Source of the DNA: Calothrix brevissima NIES-22
GTDB lineage: Bacteria; Cyanobacteriota; Cyanobacteriia; Cyanobacteriales; Nostocaceae
Direction: 5' to 3'
DNA: 64,000 nucleotides
NCBI RefSeq assembly: GCF_002367995.1
Contig: NZ_AP018207.1
Span: forward strand, 2,118,660-2,182,659
The translations under genes were made by a program, and so were the position numbers. The notes under the pieces were generated by a model. The model saw only the letters and a list, made by a program, of their open reading frames with translations. It searched no databases and was not told the DNA's origin. This document shows positions 45,076-55,286 of this stretch, one piece after another (position 1 is the first letter of the stretch; every line of letters begins with the position of its first letter).

Positions 45076-46295
45076 AGCTGCTGTTATTTATCTCTTGAGA
45101 CACAAATGTTGACATTTCCCAGATGCTATCAAAGGATGGGCGTTATTTTGCAAACATTACCAGCATAGCTAAAAAAATATCTGCATTGTGAGCTTTGTAC
45201 TAATGATTTACCTACGAGTTCAATTTACTACTTAGGTAAATTCCACAAATAAATGATTCTGCTTTAAGTTTTTCATAGATGTACTCGCTTGCCGAAGTAT
45301 TGAATTTTGACTGTTAAGTGCGAATTTGCAGCTATATGCAGAATCCTGTATGCTGACTACAGCCATCTAGGAAAGCTAACTCAAGACTTACCTAACTACG
45401 TAATTTCAGACAAAAAACACACTTCGTGTGAAAGTTTGTCAAGTAACCATAACATTTATGTATTAACAATGAAAATTAAATGTATATTTTATTACTAAAA
45501 TATTTTTGTTTTAATTATACAAAAAAGTCTAACTATAATAAAAAATTATGTTTTCCAGTTAATCTACAGAAAAATACGTATAGGTAAGCACAATTTACTA
45601 TAATGTTCTTAGATAGAAAGCAAGCTATGCCTAGCTTTACAACCTATACGGACATTTACAGCTATCTTTTATATCAGCATGTATTTTTTTTTACATTGTA
45701 TTTGAATGTAAAAAAAAAATAAATAGTTGCCGATATTTACTGATACTTTTGTAGCTTAAAAATTAAAAAATAATTAAACAGATTAATTCTTGGACATCTA
45801 AATTAGAGATAATACATACTGCTAATAGCAGCATACATAATATTTATGAAGTTGTGTAGAAGTAGTATTAAATTGATTGATGTTTCCAGAAATATTACCA
45901 GATAAGAATTCTTTGATGACTTGTTAGTCATTAATTTGTTCTGTGTTGCGGAATGATTATGGTAATCAAGGTGCATTTGAATACCTAATGTAATTAAGGT
46001 GAAGAAAAAACAGATTCTCATTAACGAATAAATCGGGTAGTTAAATTTTTGAGAACATAAATGTTGATGTTCTAGCAAGATATGCTTGTTTTTGGGTGCT
46101 TCACTTCAGTTTCTAGAACAAAAATCAACATTACTTTTTTCGGCTAGTTATTTTTTGTAGTCATACCAATTTTTTTACACAGGCGATCGCTATTTTATTA
46201 ACGGTCGTAATAGTTGGTTATGAAGACGATATTACCAAGAAACTTACTATAAAGTATCAGAGTCTACTTTAATCCAACTTTTGAGAGGATTGAAC
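45076..46295. other. AT-rich gene-free region of 1.2 kb
   Basis: No supportable gene. It holds a T/A-only inverted repeat (nine Ts ACATT / AATGT nine As, 45684-45719) and a promoter-like TATAAA at 46248-46253. ORFs of 63 and 91 codons (45307-45498 plus, 45803-46078 minus) look like chance readings of AT-rich DNA. Confidence 0.6.
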
Positions 46296-47054
46296 ATGAA
46301 AGAAGTTCTGGAATTGATTCAACTCAGAAAAGAAGAATTTGCTAAATTGCCATTATTTGAGTACTTACAAAATGAGAATATAGATCCCAGAGAAAGAGTA
46401 GCTTGGGCACCTTGTTTTGCTCCATTTGCAATGAATTTTAAAGATTTGAATGCATATGCTTTACGAGAAGAACCAACTACTGACCCTATTCAAGAGATGA
46501 TTAATACACACACTTATGAAGATGGTCAACACTGGGCTTGGTATTTAACAGATCTAGAAAGATTAAATATCGATCCATCAATGCGATTTACAGAAACGTT
46601 AAGATTTCTCTGGGGTGATGAAACCAAGAGAACAAGATATTTATGTTACGAGCTATTTGCTATAACTTTATCTCAAACCGATCCGCTTTTGAAACTGGCA
46701 ATTATTGAGTCAATAGAAGTAACAGGAACAGTAGCTTTAGCAGCTTTAGCAAAGCTTGGTCAAGATTTAGAGGAAATAACTAACAAACATTATCGTTACT
46801 TTAGTGCTCGCCATTTAGATGTAGAAACAGGTCATGTTCAGGGAGGGCTAAGTTATGATGATACAGATAATTTTTTGCAAAAACTCCAATTGACAGAACA
46901 GCAAAAAAAACAAGCTATAGAGATAGTTAACCGTGTATTTGACAGCTTTACTAATTGCGTCATAGAGCTTATGGAGTATGGACAAAATCATAGTTTTGCC
47001 CAACCTTTCCCCAAAATCCACAAGTCAGAAATACTCGCGTCAGCTATAGCATAA
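46296..47054 (+). CDS. Heme-oxygenase-fold diiron oxygenase-like protein
   Basis: A 252-residue all-helical protein of the iron-containing redox (heme-oxygenase-like diiron, HDO) type. The segment THTYEDGQHWAWYLTDLE (Glu75, His79), IIESIEVTGTVAL (Glu138 or Glu141) and YFSARHLDVETGHVQG (His173-x3-Glu177-x2-His180) give a plausible six-ligand diiron set; the H-x3-D/E-x2-H pattern is the one used by HDO enzymes such as CADD and SznF. Family members do N-oxygenation, C-C cleavage or decarboxylation; the substrate here is unknown. GAGAGGA precedes the ATG at 46296 (the TTG at 46281 is unlikely). It is one base before the FOXRED2-like flavoprotein gene, so they act together. Confidence 0.72.
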   Translation: MKEVLELIQLRKEEFAKLPLFEYLQNENIDPRERVAWAPCFAPFAMNFKDLNAYALREEPTTDPIQEMINTHTYEDGQHWAWYLTDLERLNIDPSMRFTETLRFLWGDETKRTRYLCYELFAITLSQTDPLLKLAIIESIEVTGTVALAALAKLGQDLEEITNKHYRYFSARHLDVETGHVQGGLSYDDTDNFLQKLQLTEQQKKQAIEIVNRVFDSFTNCVIELMEYGQNHSFAQPFPKIHKSEILASAIA

Positions 47055-47055
47055 A

Positions 47056-48684
47056 ATGAATAAAAATTTAGATTTATATTATTTAATAATAGGTGCCGGC
47101 CCTGCTGGCTTACAGCTAGGTTATTTCTTAGAAAAATCCCAAAGAAAATATTTGATACTAGAATCAGGAGACTCTCCAGGGACTTCTTTTGAAAAGTTTC
47201 CCCGACACGGTAAGTTAATTTCGATTAATAAAGTTCACACTGGCTATGATGACAAAGAAATTAATCTGAGGTGGGATTGGAATTCTCTATTGAATGATAG
47301 CGATATCATGCTGTTCAAGAATTACAGCAGGAAATATTTTCCCAATGCAAGCGATCTCGTCAGATATCTTCACGATTTTGCTAACCACTTTCATCTCAAC
47401 GTTAAATACGGCTGCCAAGTTGTCAATATCAAGAAAGATAGTAAATTTGTTGTCACTGACAAAGACAATAACATATATTCTGCATCCCGTCTCATCATCG
47501 CTACAGGGTTTGCAAAACCCTACATTCCACAAATACCTGGAATTGAACTAGCAGAAAACTACATTGATGTCAGCATAGATCCAGAAGATTTTGTGAATCA
47601 AAAAGTCTTAATAATTGGTAAAGGAAATTCTGGCTTTGAAACAGCTGATAATCTCATCGATACAGCCGCAATAATTCATATAGCTAGTCAAAATCCTATA
47701 TCTATGGCATGGAAAACCAAATATGTAGGACATCTACGAGCAGTCAATAATAATTTTCTCGATACATACCAGCTAAAATCTCAGAATGCTGTTTTAGATG
47801 CAAGTATTACTAAGATAGAGCGTCATGAAGGTAAATTCATTGTATCTTTTGCCTATACACATGCTAATGGAGAAGAAGAAGATCTAGTTTACGATCGCGT
47901 TATTGTCTGTACTGGCTTTCGCTTTGATGATTCAATTTTTGATCAATCCTGTAAACCTGAGTTAGTTATCAACAACCGTTTTCCGGCTCAAACTAGTGAA
48001 TGGGAATCAGTCAATATTAAAGATTTGTATTTTATCGGAGTACTGAGTCATATGCGAGATTTCAAGAAAAAGCAATCCGGCTTTATTCATGGATTCCGTT
48101 ATAATATTCGTGCAATTAAAAAAATTTTAGATTACAAGTATCATAACCAAGAATTACCCTATCAATTACTCAGTGCTACACCCCAATCTTTGACAGAGGA
48201 AATCTTGAAGCGAGTTAATACAAGTTCTGGATTATGGCAGCAAACAGGCTTTCTCTGCGACTTAATAGTTATTTCAGAGCCAGGTAAATCAGCTAAGTAT
48301 TATCAGGAACTACCTAAAGACTATATCCATGAAAGTGAACTTGGTAAATGTAATCATTACTATACTATTTCCTTAGAATTTGGTTTGGAAGCAGGTGAAA
48401 TTTCAGATCCTTTCGCACTTGATCGGGTTCATAAAAATGATGCTGGCAATGCTGCACAAAGCGCTTTCATCCATCCTGTTATTAGATGTTTTTGTGGTAG
48501 TACATTAATTCAAGAACATCATGTTATTGAGGATTTGGCTGCAGAATGGTTAGAAGATGTGCATATAATACCATTGCTAGAATTCTTCAAAGTTCAACTA
48601 TCAGAAAATTTAGAATATTCTCTAGTAAATGAAGATAAAGGATATTTAACTTCTGAGATGTTAAGTCTAGCTCTTGTGGAGTAA
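47056..48684 (+). CDS. FOXRED2-like FAD/NAD(P)-dependent oxidoreductase
   Basis: A 542-residue flavoprotein monooxygenase-like protein. FAD fold LIIGAGPAGLQLGYFLEKS (Gly13-x-Gly15-x2-Gly18), the linker FPRHGKLISINKVHTG (about 48-63) and LRWDWNSLL (about 71-79), the ATGF motif (149-152) and the NAD(P) fold VLIIGKGNSGFETADNL (184-200). PRHGKLISINK, NLRWDWNSLL and YFPNASDLVRYLHDF match the pattern of animal FOXRED2/ERFAD proteins. The C-terminal 150 residues, including CFCGSTLIQEHHV (about 480), are outside the flavin core. One base after the diiron protein gene ends; it probably reduces or supplies a partner enzyme or oxidises a shared substrate. No signal peptide seen. Confidence 0.78.
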   Translation: MNKNLDLYYLIIGAGPAGLQLGYFLEKSQRKYLILESGDSPGTSFEKFPRHGKLISINKVHTGYDDKEINLRWDWNSLLNDSDIMLFKNYSRKYFPNASDLVRYLHDFANHFHLNVKYGCQVVNIKKDSKFVVTDKDNNIYSASRLIIATGFAKPYIPQIPGIELAENYIDVSIDPEDFVNQKVLIIGKGNSGFETADNLIDTAAIIHIASQNPISMAWKTKYVGHLRAVNNNFLDTYQLKSQNAVLDASITKIERHEGKFIVSFAYTHANGEEEDLVYDRVIVCTGFRFDDSIFDQSCKPELVINNRFPAQTSEWESVNIKDLYFIGVLSHMRDFKKKQSGFIHGFRYNIRAIKKILDYKYHNQELPYQLLSATPQSLTEEILKRVNTSSGLWQQTGFLCDLIVISEPGKSAKYYQELPKDYIHESELGKCNHYYTISLEFGLEAGEISDPFALDRVHKNDAGNAAQSAFIHPVIRCFCGSTLIQEHHVIEDLAAEWLEDVHIIPLLEFFKVQLSENLEYSLVNEDKGYLTSEMLSLALVE

Positions 48685-48813
48685 AATTTAAACCTTTTTA
48701 AACTAGTGTGCATCAGATCTGATTCACATCTAGTCTGGGTGTCTACTTTACATTACATTGCTGAGACACCTTATACATAATGCTATGTGTAATGCCTATG
48801 ACAGAGAAAATCA

Positions 48814-49683
48814 ATGCTGTATCGTAATTTTGGAACACAAGCTGAACTTGATGCTGAGTATAATGCTGCTGAGTTAGGTATTGATATAACCTCGTATATA
48901 AATTTTTATGCTACGAGTAGTTTTAAGGTACGTGAAGAACTGACTTGCCATCTCAGTATTCCTTTTGGCCCAACGCTAGCTGAACACTTAGATATATTCC
49001 CAGCATCTCGTCCTGGTGCGCCGATTTTGGTATTTATTCACGGCGGATACTGGATTATGCTTAGTAGCAAGGAGTTTAGCTTTGTCGCTAAAGGTATGGT
49101 TGCCGCAGATGTCACAGTGATAGTTATCAACTATGCTTTGTGTCCAAAAGTGACGATTGACGAAATTGTCCGCCAAAACCGTGCTGCGATCGCCTGGATT
49201 TACAATAATGCTGAAAGCTTTGGTGCTGACCCTAATCGCATCTATGTATCTGGTCACTCAGCAGGCGGTCATCTCACAGCTATGCTGATGGCGACAGACT
49301 GGAAAAACGATTATGGTTTACCACAGAACATTATTAAAGGTGGCTGTGCTATTAGTGGTTTGTTTGATTTGATGCCCTTTCCGTATACATGGCTACAACC
49401 AAAACTACAATTAACTTGGGGTGAAGTTCTCCGCAATAGTCCTATTCGGCATATTCCTCCACAGGCTGGTTCGCTGATTGTCACTTACGGTGGTGAAGAA
49501 ACAAAAGAGTTTCAGCGTCAATCACAAGATTTTCTTGCTGCATGGAAAGCTAAAGGACTGGAGGGTGAATATTTACCACAGCCCGCTCAAAATCACTTTA
49601 CTGCGATTAATGGTTTTCTTGACCGAAATAGCCCACTTTGCCAATCTATTTTGCAACAGATGGGAATTGTAGTCCAAATTTAA
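48814..49683 (+). CDS. Alpha/beta hydrolase of the arylformamidase (HGGYW) type
   Basis: A 289-residue alpha/beta hydrolase. The oxyanion motif VFIHGGYWIML (HGGYW, about 67-77) and the nucleophile elbow VSGHSAGGHLTAML (Ser about 149) match arylformamidase/kynurenine formamidase of the AFMID/BNA7 type and related carboxylesterases. A His in AQNHFTAING (about 270) closes the triad. AT-rich gap of 129 bp from the flavoprotein gene, same strand. With the two upstream oxidases it suggests cleavage of an oxidised aryl or formyl product, but this is inference. It ends 12 bp before the convergent giant kinase. Confidence 0.78.
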   Translation: MLYRNFGTQAELDAEYNAAELGIDITSYINFYATSSFKVREELTCHLSIPFGPTLAEHLDIFPASRPGAPILVFIHGGYWIMLSSKEFSFVAKGMVAADVTVIVINYALCPKVTIDEIVRQNRAAIAWIYNNAESFGADPNRIYVSGHSAGGHLTAMLMATDWKNDYGLPQNIIKGGCAISGLFDLMPFPYTWLQPKLQLTWGEVLRNSPIRHIPPQAGSLIVTYGGEETKEFQRQSQDFLAAWKAKGLEGEYLPQPAQNHFTAINGFLDRNSPLCQSILQQMGIVVQI

Positions 49684-49694
49684 TTCAAGCTAAA

Positions 49695-52600
49695 TTACAT
49701 AGGAATTTCAACGAGAAATTCTGTACCTTCACCCAGAGTAGAACTACAGATCAACTGACCTTTATGTTTATCGACGACTACCTGATAGCTAATTGATAAG
49801 CCCAAACCTGTACCACTACCTACAGGTTTAGTAGTAAAAAATGGGTCGAAAATTTTCTGTAAAATTAACTCTGGTATACCACAACCATTATCAATAATTC
49901 TAATCCTGACGGTATTTAATTCGCCTAATTCTGTGCAAATACGAATTGTTGGTTGGAAATTTTTATTTTTTTTATTTTCTGACTCCTCTAAGGCATCAAT
50001 TGCATTACTTAAAATATTCATAAATACCTGATTGAGTTGACTGGCATAACAATTGACTTCTGGCAATTGCTGATACTCTTTGATAACCTGAATCTCAGGG
50101 CGATCGCTTTTTTTCTGAAGTCTGTGTTGTAAAATCATCAAAGTGTTTTCCAGTCCATCATGAATATTAGCAGGCTTCATGTCAGATTCATCTAATCTAG
50201 AGAAGTTACGCAAACCCAAAACAATATTCCGGATTCTGGTACTGCCTGTTTTCATTGAATCTAGTATTTTCAGCAAATCTGACGCAATAAAATCTAAATC
50301 AATTTCCGCTGCTTTTTCATTAAAAAAATCAGCAGATGCATATTCTTCTTGGCATATATTAATGAATTCTAATAATTCTTTTATATATTCACCAACGTGA
50401 TTGATATTACCATGAATAAAATTAATAGGATTATTAATTTCATGAGCTACTCCCGCTACCATTTGCCCCAAACTAGACATTTTTTCTGTTTGAATTAATT
50501 GAGTTTGGGTGCGGCGTAGTTCTTGTATTGCTTGCTGTAAATTTTGATTTTTTTCGTTAAGTTCTTGTGTCCTTGCCTCTACTTTGTCTTCTAAAGAATG
50601 GTTATATTCTTCTAAATGTTTATTGGCTTGGTTCAAATTATTGTAGAGAATAGAATTTTCCAGAGAAATAGCTGCTTGAGTAGTTAAGAGTTTGATAGTT
50701 TCTATCCGCTCTTGCGTAAATGCTCCTGTTGCCAGATTATTTTCTAGGTAAAGAATACCTAGTAATTTACCTTGATTCACAACAGGTATACATAAAATGC
50801 TTTTAGGCTTTTGACACAATAAATATCTTTCATCTACTAAAAATTTATCAATTTTAGCATCATCAATTACTAATATTTCTCTTGTTCGTTTGACATAGTT
50901 AATGACATTTATAGGTACATCATCAATTGATACTATATGAGTTGATATAATACTTGTAGAAGTATATATTTCACTAGAATTACCATTAGCTGCATTAATT
51001 ATTAAACTGAAATCATCACCTTGATTTAAGATAAAAGCTGATTTTGATGCTCCGGCATTTTCCATTAAAACTTCCATTAATACAGCAATCAAGCGCTCCG
51101 TCTCCATTTCTCCAGATAAAGCTTGCGAGGCTTTAATTACAGCTAACAAATCTAGAGAATCTGAAATACTGGTTTTACCACCAATCATAGTTTGGTGGCT
51201 ACTATGAGTTGATAAATGTATTTCATTGATTAATGAGTTTTTTCTAACAAAATTTGGGCTAGTTCTTTCTTCTTGAAGAATTGGATTAAGGAATTGAGAG
51301 TAACGTTTTTCCAATTCGCTGACTTTGGCTTTAGCTCCCCAGTATATATAGCCATAATATGCATCAATTAAGTGAATTTTAGCAATCTTGTGCTTGCTCC
51401 AGTCAAAATATAATTTTGCAGCCAATTCGTTAGCGATCGCTTCTTCATGAATATATCTATTTTCATGGGCTATAGATATAGCATTTTCATACTTATCCAT
51501 TGCTTCTATATATTTACCAGTAACTCGATATATTTCAGCTTCAACTAAATAAAATTTATGCAAATAGTTCATGGGTGCATAATGTGCCCAATTTTCTAGT
51601 TTTGAATTATTTGCTATTACTCTTTCCATGATTTCTTGTTGCTGAGATGCATCAACATCTGAATAGATAGACAGATGAGCTAATGAGTCATAAAAATGAA
51701 ATTGAACAATTATTAGCATTCCTATGCCAGCATACAAATATTGTTCTGCTTGCTTGGCATTTTCTATTGCTTTTGGGTAATCTGCTAGCAAATAACACAG
51801 TTGAAGCTTAACTGTAAATAAGAAAAAAAGAGCAATACCATCATTATATTTAATATGAATAGGCAACATCTTTACTTCATCATATGCTTCGCCAACTAAA
51901 TAATAAGGAGTCTCTGCTTTTCCTGATAGATTCAAAATCGTTTGTCGATATATTTCATTCCAGTAAAAAGCTCTATCTTGTTTAATTTGATGAATAATTT
52001 TGCCGTTATTTGCTACATCTTTTTCAAGTATTAATAACTCTTGTCCAATAAAATATGCACTATAAGAATAAGCATAAATAGCATAAGAAGCAAATTCTAA
52101 ATCTCCTGTTTCGAGATTGGTAAAATATGCTTCCATTAAAGGCTGTAAAGTATCTTTAACATGTTCTTTCCAAGGTCTAATGAGTTGATTAAATGTTTCT
52201 AGAACTTTTAAGTTAACTGCTTTGTTCGGGAATTTATTTAGCATAGTCACAGCTAATTTACCGAATTGATACCCAGACTCGATGTCTCCAATTACTCCAC
52301 ACAGCATTACCCCATATGCAACATAAGAGAAAGCAGACAAAGGGCCATTACCATAGTTGATCGATAGATTGATCTGTTTAAGTACAATTAAGGGAAATAG
52401 TGCAGGAATGGCAGTATAAGCAAAAGCAGTTGTATTCGATAAAATACGCATAACCACTAATGCTTGAGTATCTGTCATTTGGGGTAAATTGATTAAGTCT
52501 TCAATATTCCTTCCTGCTAGATTTGATGCTGTTTCTGCGATTGCTATTTGAATATCGTATTGACTAGGTTGTTCGGGGAATTCCACTGCTAATAATTTCA

Positions 52601-55286
52601 AGAAGCTTAATGCAACATTTACGGCTTCTAGTGCCTTACCTTGCGCTCCATAAGCTTGAATTTCGACTTCATAAACTTTAACTTTGTCTAGCAGTACTTT
52701 AGCGTTTATCAAGACTACTTCTACTAATTTTTCCATCTCCGCAAATTCGCCAGCTAAATATGCTGCTTCTGCTGCTGTTTCATATAAAGCTAAAGTCAGT
52801 TCATATTTGCTATCCCAGCTATCGTCAGCTAGTAATTCAATACCAATCTTTAAATACTTAAGTGCAGATGAATAAGCTGTTGAAGCTAAGGCTTTACGTC
52901 CAGCCATTAAATTCATCTCAGCCAAATTATTGCGTTTAGATTGGTGAGTAATAAACTCTAAAGCAATATTGAATTGGTTAACAAGCTCAAAAATCTTTTC
53001 TTCTCGTTCAGATAGAGGAATATTACTTAATAACAAAATGCCAATTTTTAAATGAATTGGCTTTTTCTCTTCAACTGGAATTAAAGAATAGGCGGCTTGC
53101 TGGATTCTGTCATGAACAAATTTATATTTGGGAAATTGAAAGTTAGATGTTTGTAATGGCTGCTTTTCTTGACGTTCAATACTAATTTCTAGAGCTTGTT
53201 CATTCTGAAATAATTTGTAAGCTTCATTCTGAGGTAAAACTAAGCCATCACGTAATGCTGGTAATAAATCTAATGCTGTATCTTGAGCAGATTTCTCATG
53301 GACGATCGCTAAAGTTTTTAAGTCAAATTCATTACCAATACATGATGCTAGCATCAATACTTTTTGAGTCGGTACTGGCAACTTTTCTATTTGCATAGCT
53401 ATGAATTTGACAACATCATCTGTCAGAGATAATGCTTCTATTTCTCTAATATCATATTCCCAAAAGCCAGTATCAAAGTTAATGTTAATTAAATTATCAT
53501 CATACAAACTTTGGAGGAATTGATTAGCAAAAAATGGATTACCTTTAGTTTTAGCAAATACCATTTGTGTTAATGGTGCTGCTGTTTTCTCTTGACAATA
53601 GAGAGTGTCTACAATTAAGTGGTTTAAATCGCTTTGAGTTAAAGGTGCTAAATTAATATTATTAATTGTTGCTCCTATCTTCTCAAGCTCTTGGAGTTTC
53701 AAATACAGGGGGTGAGCCTGTGAAACTTCATTATCTCGATAAGCACCAATCAGTAGTAAACCTCTAGTTATTTCTGCTTGATTTTCAATTTCACCAATCA
53801 TCTGAGAAGATGTATGTTCGCTCATTAAGAGTTGAATAAATTTTAACGAAGTTACATCCGACCATTGCAAGTCATCTAAAAAAATTACTAGAGGATGCTC
53901 TTTGCTGCTAAATACCTGAATGAATCTTTGAAATAATAAATTGAAGCGATTTTGCACCGCGCTACCAGAAAGTTCTGCGACTTCAGGCTGCTTACCTAAA
54001 ATTAGTTCTAGTTCGGGAATCACATCAATAATTAGCTGACTTTGTTCGCCTAAAGCTGACAAAATCTTTGTTTTCCATTGTTGAATTTGGGCGTCAGTTT
54101 CGCTTAATAATTGCCCAATTAAATCGCGAAATGCTTGTACTAATCCAGATAAGGGTATGTCACGCTGAAATTGATCGAATTTACCTTTAATGAAGTAACT
54201 CCGTTGGCGGACAATTGGTTTATGAACTTCGTTAACTACAGCAGTTTTACCAATTCCCGATGAACCTGTAACTAAAACCATTTCGGTTTTACCACTGGCG
54301 ACTCTTTCAAAAGCAGCAAGTAGAGTTTCTACTTCTTGTTGACGACCATAGAGTTTTTCTGGGATAAGGAAGCGATCGCAAAAATCACGCAATCCTAACT
54401 CAAAGCTGGGAATATCGCCTGTATCTTGCCACAGTTGGCGACACTTTTCTAAGTCATGCTTCAGTCCCTGGCTGCTTTGATAGCGGTCTTCGGCATTTTT
54501 CGCCATCAGCTTATCGATAATATCGGATAATATCTGTGGTATATTAGAATTAATTTGGCTGACTTTTGGTGCTTCTTTGGCGATGTGGCAATAAACTAAC
54601 TCCATTGGATCGGTTGTAGTGAAAGGTAACTGTCCGGTGAGGAGTTCAAAAAGAGTAACACCCAAGGAATAAAAATCGGTACGGTAATCAATACCTCTAT
54701 TCATTCTTCCCGTTTGTTCGGGAGAAATATAAGCTAATGTTCCTTCTAAGACGTTGGGATTAGTCAGGAATTGAATTTCTCTAGGTAGGAGAGTCGCAAG
54801 ACTAAAATCAATAATTTTAACTTCACCTGAAATAGGGTGAATTAAAATGTTAGCTGGTTTAATATCCTTATGAATAATGCGATCGCGATGCAGTTCTTCT
54901 AATATAGATGTAATTTCGATGGCGATGGGAAAAAACTCATCAAGGGAAATACAATTAGCTTCTATTCTCTGATGAGAGAATTGCCATTCCTTGAGAGAGA
55001 GTCCACCAAAATCTTCCATAATTAAGGCGTAGCCATTGCGGCAATTTTCTAAGCTTAAAGGCTGGACTATGCCTTTAATATCCAGGTTTTTGATAATGTT
55101 ATATTGATTGCGGAATTGAGCAATTTCACTAAATGTAGGGTATTCATTCCGCATCAGTTTAATAATGACAGATTGTTTATCTTGTTCTCGGATACCCCGA
55201 TAAACAAGGGTTTTAGTACCTGAGTAAATTTTCTCTGTCAGACGATAACCAGTAATAAGATTTATTGTATCGATGGGTACGGACAT
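49695..55286 (-). CDS. Ser/Thr kinase-ATPase-GAF-histidine kinase (HstK type), 1863 residues
   Basis: A single large signalling protein. An N-terminal Ser/Thr kinase domain (about 10-285: VIIK lysine, catalytic loop [10 protein letters not shown] about 138-147, but DFS rather than DFG, then [14 protein letters not shown]). An AAA/NACHT-like ATPase (Walker [13 protein letters not shown] about 339-350; [11 protein letters not shown]). A long helical repeat region (about 700-1350, TPR-like). A GAF domain (about 1378-1540), coiled coil, HisKA with GVAHEINNP (His near 1610), and HATPase ([25 protein letters not shown]). This matches the HstK family of multi-kinases abundant in Nostocales. The ligand is unknown. 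Confidence 0.92.

Follow-up and report, generated by a model that had tools for sequence, protein, structure and literature searches.

A probable tryptophan-derived minicluster with its own giant kinase in Calothrix brevissima NIES-22

RESULTS

Organization of the locus

We analyzed 64,000 nucleotides of the cyanobacterium Calothrix brevissima NIES-22 (contig NZ_AP018207.1, positions 2,118,660 to 2,182,659; hereafter the window) and concentrated on three genes, termed P0001, P0002, and P0003, and on the giant kinase gene that converges on them (Table 1). An earlier annotation made from the sequence alone (the original prediction) had described three packed plus-strand genes behind a 1.2 kb AT-rich stretch devoid of genes. 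Our open reading frame (ORF) calls confirm these coordinates, with gaps of 1 bp between P0001 and P0002 and of 129 bp between P0002 and P0003. An alternative TTG start is possible for P0001 at position 46281, and the convergent kinase gene ends 11 bp beyond P0003.

Table 1. Features of the P0001–P0003 locus in window coordinates
Feature	Position	Strand	Details
A+T-rich gene-free stretch, presumed promoter region	45076-46295	.	1220 bp
P0001, predicted AetD/SktA-family diiron enzyme	46296-47054	+	ATG start, 252 aa
P0002, FAD/NADPH-type flavoprotein, FMO-like	47056-48684	+	542 aa, Pyr_redox_3
P0003, alpha/beta-hydrolase, arylformamidase-like or esterase	48814-49683	+	289 aa, BD-FAE/Abhydrolase_3
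Giant dual kinase, HstK/cbSTKIII type	49695-55286	-	1863 residues; Pkinase, AAA_16, GAF, HisKA, HATPase

The gene-free stretch has a G+C content of 0.293, compared with 0.40 across the window, and the segment 45680-46400 is 66.6% identical to its counterpart in Tolypothrix sp. FACHB-123. An Rfam scan of the whole stretch returned no match, promoter and terminator scans were level with shuffled sequence, and no strongly conserved block was apparent against this one relative; a regulatory RNA at this position was therefore rejected. The window genome (9.26 Mb, 9 contigs) contains one match to P0001. Tolypothrix sp. FACHB-123 harbors a syntenic copy of P0001-P0002-P0003 and the kinase, and among the loci examined the complete trio is present only in the window and in this near relative. 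A lack of linkage elsewhere, which would have counted against the proposed three-gene cluster, thus applies by half: P0003 is rarely linked (3/7 genomes) and the trio does not recur more widely, while HDO-flavoprotein and HDO-kinase pairs do (HDO, haem-oxygenase-fold diiron oxygenase).

P0001 is a predicted AetD/SktA-family diiron enzyme

Scans of P0001 against Pfam and NCBIfam revealed no significant family. Its best PDB relative in a sequence search is AetD (E 4.5e-61). The originally noted H-x3-E-x2-H pattern is present, and with family matches of similar clarity for P0002 (Pyr_redox_3, 4.7e-51) and P0003 (BD-FAE, 5.2e-20), a chance resemblance can be discarded for the three proteins. Residues D76, H79, E141, H173, E177, and H180 of P0001 align with the published AetD ligands D76, H79, E140, H172, E176, and H179, so that all six iron ligands, together with AetD Tyr167, are retained in the alignment and the 3-His/3-carboxylate set that HDOs carry on three core helices is complete. 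A model of P0001 built from a 30-sequence alignment (mean pLDDT 90.9) adopts the seven-helix haem-oxygenase-like fold. When we searched the PDB with this model, the top 21 matches were AetD chains (TMq 0.84-0.87, 38-42% identity), followed by TenA homologues, UndA, and BesC.

AetD is the diiron nitrile synthase of aetokthonotoxin biosynthesis and converts 5,7-dibromotryptophan into a carbonitrile (PMC11611611; this and the following literature statements draw on parts of the cited papers). SktA, the second family member with a known reaction, turns 5-bromotryptophan into 5-bromoskatole, and the title of the primary SktA paper, in the reference list of the same source, mentions skatole and cyanide; two members of the group with known reactions were found there (PMC13108848). 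The predicted fold, the six ligands, the tyrosine, and a similar length connect P0001 with AetD (PMC11611611, PMC10654658), and its predicted ligand set connects it with SktA (PMC13108848). The second-sphere residues are M139/A142/S214 in AetD and T139/T142/F214 in SktA (PMC13108848), and I140/T143/F218 in P0001. The AetD set is hence absent, whereas two of the three residues agree with SktA, as known from its description in a review, with I140 in place of T139. The I/T/F set of P0001, in combination with Tyr168, is also the commonest among the aligned HDO proteins (42/115), and we therefore name P0001 only to the AetD/SktA family and assign no product. The genomic setting differs from that of AetD as well: P0001 sits with P0002, P0003, and the giant kinase, and no halogenase family was found among the neighbours scanned.

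By sequence and predicted structure, P0001 is thus an HDO-type diiron enzyme of a family whose characterized members fragment tryptophan. This relation had escaped the original prediction, which proposed a small or peptide-linked aromatic substrate. From the family membership, free L-tryptophan or a ring-substituted tryptophan is the likely substrate of P0001, and we disfavour a peptide-linked one, with no search for a precursor peptide made, since the amino acids that AetD binds are free ones (Trp, 5-Br-Trp, Tyr, and Phe in PDB complexes).

Relatives of P0001 occur in 98 of the 388 genomes of the order Cyanobacteriales (hereafter the order). Our HDO search of these genomes located 136 matching places, of which 115 were fetched, corresponding to 114 loci, one with two copies; the other 21 comprise fragments, weak matches, and some full-length proteins with E values of about 1e-44 to 1e-52. 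Addition of L002, the Tolypothrix locus, from a separate search gave 115 HDO loci, window included. The short HDO copy of L074 is missing from the residue table. Seven further fetched loci contain P0002-type genes and no HDO. Because ORFs were called by a mechanical rule with a minimum of 80 aa, distances counted in genes are approximate.

Distant relatives of the AetD family are also found on enterobacterial plasmids, 265 of the 331 matching records being from Escherichia and 260 of the 331 typed as conjugative. The Escherichia matches listed cover 95% of P0001 at 22.4% identity and are annotated as hypothetical protein or not at all. Plasmid records from Streptomyces clavuligerus (36.5%) and Cupriavidus (40.6%) contain further relatives.

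A giant dual kinase recurs beside HDO genes

The kinase matches Pkinase (2e-37), GAF (5.7e-13), and HATPase (9.4e-23) in Pfam, and HisKA at 22.2 bits, below the cut-off of 26.9, with an AHEINNP H box present. Walker A and the H, N, and G boxes can be located, and the glycine-loop pattern is unmatched. HstK/cbSTKIII proteins, which are numerous in filamentous cyanobacteria, combine an N-terminal Ser/Thr kinase, a GAF domain, and a C-terminal His kinase (PMC2176072). The window kinase has this architecture, with its GAF domain in the middle, and differs from these proteins in its position beside a biosynthetic cassette, a role not described in the parts of PMC2176072 used here.

In 56 of the 115 loci, the three genes to either side of the HDO include a homologous kinase (400 aa or more); 49 of these kinases have at least 1,500 aa, and the seven shorter ones may be other kinases or fragments. 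The kinase is located downstream on the opposite strand in 29 loci, upstream on the opposite strand in 12, downstream on the same strand in 10, and upstream on the same strand in 5. Kinases of at least 700 aa occupy slot -1 in 13/113 cases and slot +1 in 19/114, compared with 2/581 for slots 5-10 genes away. Counting all labelled neighbours of the 115 loci, we find any labelled kinase at 57, a P0002-type gene at 9, and a P0003-type gene at 4. The convergent kinase gene had been taken as the end of the cluster; it does not bound it and, as the most frequent labelled neighbour of HDO genes, is treated here as part of the unit.

Linked loci are spread over eight families of the order. By genus label they account for 24 of 41, among which the genus of the window may count more than once since the window and Tolypothrix are labelled separately. 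A quick-method tree of the HDOs (115 rows, poor support at 32/112 inner branches) requires no fewer than 20 changes between linked and unlinked and no fewer than 26 among the five orientation states, with gain and loss indistinguishable. The HDO-linked kinases fall into several deep groups (FastTree, 72 rows), and these groups together with the different orientations disfavour a single ancestral juxtaposition of HDO and kinase. A clade consisting of HDO-linked kinases alone was not found: non-linked kinases, chosen for the most part because they matched the window kinase best and hence biased to its clade, are nested within that clade. Other large neighbours were considered as candidate sensors; among those scanned (in loci other than L117, L127, L133, L138, L139, and L141), the proteins of L148 and L161 are WD40 proteins and the 1952-residue protein of L088 is an alpha-2-macroglobulin.

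Of 19 genomes outside the order that contain an HDO match, 16 were scored, the weak matches in G463, G493, and G558 being left out; the HDO copy of G393 lies at a contig end. In five of the 16 (G405, G446, G501, G536, and G557, adding three more families), HDO and kinase lie within 3 kb of each other, against 0.18 expected (P 1.4e-6), an expectation that may be low, to the detriment of the linkage, because at most 28 candidates per genome were scored (0-11 strong kinase matches per genome, 77 in total).

We inspected eight kinases that are closely related to the window kinase but have no HDO beside them. Four of them (L182, L184, L185, and L188) adjoin family-2 terpene synthases and P450s, and the other four have no such neighbours. 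In a tree of 26 kinases the HDO-linked and terpene-linked proteins are intermingled, which takes three or more changes from one kind to the other, and the kinases of L182, L184, and L185 share one supported set with HDO-linked kinases. At least four of five full single-domain terpene synthases lie within 4.5 kb of such a kinase (13 genomes, kinases among the matches listed).

The kinase may be a plain regulator, through which an outside cue such as nitrogen, iron, or redox state switches the operon on without any sensing of its product, and we place this alternative only slightly short of an even chance. Regulators commonly adjoin biosynthetic genes. Among the HstK-type kinases of Anabaena PCC 7120, expression of Alr2258 depends on the nitrogen source, and iron deprivation induces Alr0709 and Alr0710 under NtcA control (PMC2176072). 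A single cue fits less simply with the finding that the same kinase clade flanks chemically unrelated synthases, namely HDOs and enzymes of the sesquiterpene type.

Two observations concern relatives of these proteins. In the window genome, five giant kinases of the HstK type stand in tandem (G000:C1:2805837-2832650; L200, L201). On the HDO side, a tree group of 19 relatives (L140, L142, L147, L149, L151-L156, L158-L160, L162-L165, L180, and L181) has lost two to four iron ligands with the frame still open, lies mostly beside a glutamate-5-kinase-like gene as judged by eye, and likely has a new, non-diiron function.

P0002 and P0001-type enzymes form a pair

P0002 had been called a FOXRED2-like flavoprotein, and the flavoprotein part of this assignment is borne out by a Pyr_redox_3 match (4.7e-51), which marks the general fold, and by two dinucleotide motifs; a profile search finds flavin-containing monooxygenases (FMOs) and related reductases. 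Matches below E 1e-60 occur in 15 of the 388 genomes of the order. In eight of these 15 the P0002-type gene lies within three genes of an HDO (one pair is decayed), preceding it in three, one of them decayed, and in the remaining seven the order-wide HDO search gave no HDO match. In two genera outside the order the two proteins are fused in one frame of 906 (L202) or 834 codons (L203), and a giant kinase lies 1.2 kb from the L202 fusion. P0001-type and P0002-type proteins, linked in several families and fused in two genera, are thus a true pair.

The AlphaFold model of P0002 is weak (pLDDT 62.8, with residues 189-248 below 50), and P0002 may accordingly be a monooxygenase, a halogenase, or a reductase for the HDO. 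A match to the FMO fingerprint F-x-G-x3-H-x3-F at residues 326-336 was taken as chance, given its location behind the NADPH motif and the lack of conservation of its His in the alignment. A dedicated reductase that passes NADPH electrons to the diiron center of P0001 would agree with the natural fusions, the two dinucleotide motifs, and the Pyr_redox_3 fold. We nevertheless give this possibility about one chance in four: a P0002-type gene is absent from the three-gene neighbourhood of 106 of 115 HDO loci, 7 of the 15 genomes with such a gene have no HDO match, and in L064 the P0002-type gene replaces a halogenase-type enzyme.

In that locus the P0002-type gene lies between the HDO and an FMO, in the slot taken by a tryptophan halogenase in L085 and by a second halogenase-like enzyme in L100. 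This exchange with two kinds of halogenase-type enzyme is what a single-component flavin halogenase like AetF or Bmp5 would lead one to expect. AetF, like P0002, is an FMO-like flavoprotein, and it works with an AetD-type enzyme (PMC10306068); Lys241 of P0002, invariant in 14/14 aligned sequences, lies behind the NADPH motif in the region of the catalytic Lys258 of AetF (PMC10306068). In single-component flavin halogenases the catalytic lysine belongs to an insertion of the NADPH domain and lines the FAD-substrate tunnel. The model is unreliable at this position and too poor to establish an AetF-type halogenase by structure, and no chain named AetF appears among the best 60 of 226 sequence matches or the 50 fold matches listed for P0002. 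We regard a halogenase as unlikely, slightly more so than the reductase.

P0002-type proteins (e.g. L062:10443-12224) and the L202 and L203 fusions end in a tail of ∼55 residues (IGxYLxEAGLxT..LGEIL..GW), which is found at the N terminus of a methyltransferase in L065 (L065:8038-10891), receives only a weak DUF4388 call, and might be a docking module. Decay is seen in L074, in which the HDO and P0002-type frames are both broken, and in L076, where only P0002-type fragments follow an intact HDO.

P0003 is an accessory hydrolase

Kynurenine formamidases and other arylformamidases are characterized by an HGGxW oxyanion motif, a GxSxG nucleophile, and a Ser-acid-His triad. The HGGYW and GHSAGGH motifs reported for P0003 are both present (HGGYW at 76, GHSAG at 147), and 4/4 aligned relatives keep His261 as well as two adjacent acidic residues that immediately precede 'T.EF', completing by eye a triad of the arylformamidase kind. 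Pfam assigns P0003 to BD-FAE (5.2e-20) and Abhydrolase_3, and NCBIfam HaHSL scores 154 bits, below its cut-off of 320. The best solved relative is Lipase 1 (9n8r, E 7.2e-38), and kynurenine formamidase (4e11, E 3.8e-13) ranks fifth. Of 376 genomes of the order, seven contain a close relative of P0003 (E up to 1e-60). In three of them it adjoins an HDO or lies one gene off, in two the HDO is elsewhere, and for the last two the order-wide HDO search lists none. Four loci (the window, L002, L077, and L081) place a P0003-type gene beside or one gene from the HDO. We consider P0003 an accessory.

Related cassettes contain exchangeable tailoring enzymes

Four loci (L084, L085, L088, and L092) encode HDOs with the full SktA residue set in operons of HDO, tryptophan halogenase, and FMO (Pfam 1.5e-146 and 1.8e-55 for the latter two enzymes in L085) and are candidate bromoskatole clusters; a giant kinase lies within three genes in L085 and L088. 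L091 is a fifth such operon, with Leu at the first second-sphere site. Elsewhere the HDO neighbours an O-methyltransferase and a P450 (L066), another methyltransferase (L065), or an aromatic prenyltransferase of the Orf2 type and a giant kinase (L128:9458-11301), the last possibly a prenylated indole cassette. None of the four labelled flavoenzyme types is present in 36 of the 56 kinase-linked loci. What emerges is a group of small cassettes in which the HDO is constant, the tailoring enzymes are exchangeable, and a giant kinase is often included.

DISCUSSION

We consider it probable, at roughly two chances in three, that the locus is a minicluster for a small molecule derived from tryptophan and includes a giant kinase of its own. 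This reading builds on the family, ligands, and predicted fold of P0001, on its pairing and fusion with P0002-type proteins, and on the linkage of HDO and kinase genes. Which reaction takes place, in what order the steps follow, what P0003 does, and which way the kinase link runs are inferred. As AetD does, P0001 would bind free tryptophan (or a ring-substituted one) to Fe1 through the amino and carboxylate groups of the substrate, activate O2, and cut the side chain. The result would be a small diffusible indole, for instance an indole carbonitrile, or skatole together with cyanide. P0002 would oxidize the substrate or the product of P0001, P0003 would remove a formyl or ester group from the resulting compound, and the kinase would either sense the product (or its state) via its AAA and GAF parts or control the cassette. 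Judged from general indole chemistry, a possible route in the window leads from skatole to a ring-opened formamido ketone that P0003 would deformylate.

Several counts weigh against a unit of this kind. The kinase is missing within three genes in 59 of 115 HDO loci, among them the tryptophan-halogenase loci L084, L091, and L092 (in L092 it is four genes off), and within 3 kb in 11 of the 16 genomes outside the order. HstK-type kinases are plentiful, with 15-45 matches per genome (13 genomes, at most 35 candidates scored), so that single linkages can be chance, and the clade of the window kinase includes the eight inspected members without HDO. In favour of the unit, HDO copies with broken ligand sets have a kinase neighbour in 0/20 cases versus 56/94 for those with intact ligands, although 19 of the 20 broken copies belong to one clade and the contrast is uncorrected for descent. 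P0003, on the other side, is linked to an HDO in just 3 of 7 genomes of the order. That the trio serves tryptophan degradation or detoxification, the kinase linkage being an accident of gene order kept by descent, would account for close kin sharing whole neighbourhoods (L002 and the window) and is highly improbable: the linkage comes in four relative orientations, involves kinases of several deep groups, extends to eight families plus three outside the order, and stands against a background of 2/581.

Synthase-kinase miniclusters have a precedent. Agger et al. reportedly described, in 2008, miniclusters of sesquiterpene synthase, P450, and a hybrid two-component protein. Such miniclusters, with a 'putative hybrid two-component protein', are documented in Fischerella and Nostoc (PMC4558948). 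Like the window, they combine a small-molecule synthase and an oxygenase with a giant kinase, the published two-component proteins being likened to ours by description; their synthase is a terpene cyclase rather than a diiron tryptophan enzyme. In the open-licence literature we found no paper that ties AetD-type enzymes to these kinases, the primary SktA paper, possibly with a neighbourhood survey, being outside this scope. The window enzymes are thus new members of a known, young family, and the HDO-kinase cassette is, within the literature searched, an unreported form of a known kind of synthase-kinase minicluster.

The recurrence of the HDO-kinase neighbourhood in many cyanobacteria suggests a small chemical-signal or self-controlled metabolite cassette. 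A more specific proposal, which we put forward as a speculation with about one chance in five, is that cyanobacteria use signal cassettes composed of a one-gene synthase (AetD-type or sesquiterpene), swappable tailoring enzymes, and an adjoining HstK-type kinase as the receptor. The kinase would stay while synthase and tailoring genes are exchanged, analogous to a LuxI/LuxR pairing made from unrelated parts. In the window, the product of P0001, P0002, and P0003, for example a ring-opened, deformylated skatole product, would then be read by the kinase at 49695-55286.

The natural HDO-flavoprotein fusion offers a simple two-enzyme assay system. The pairing of kinase and HDO provides a handle on what dual Ser/Thr-His kinases respond to and on cyanobacterial chemical signalling.

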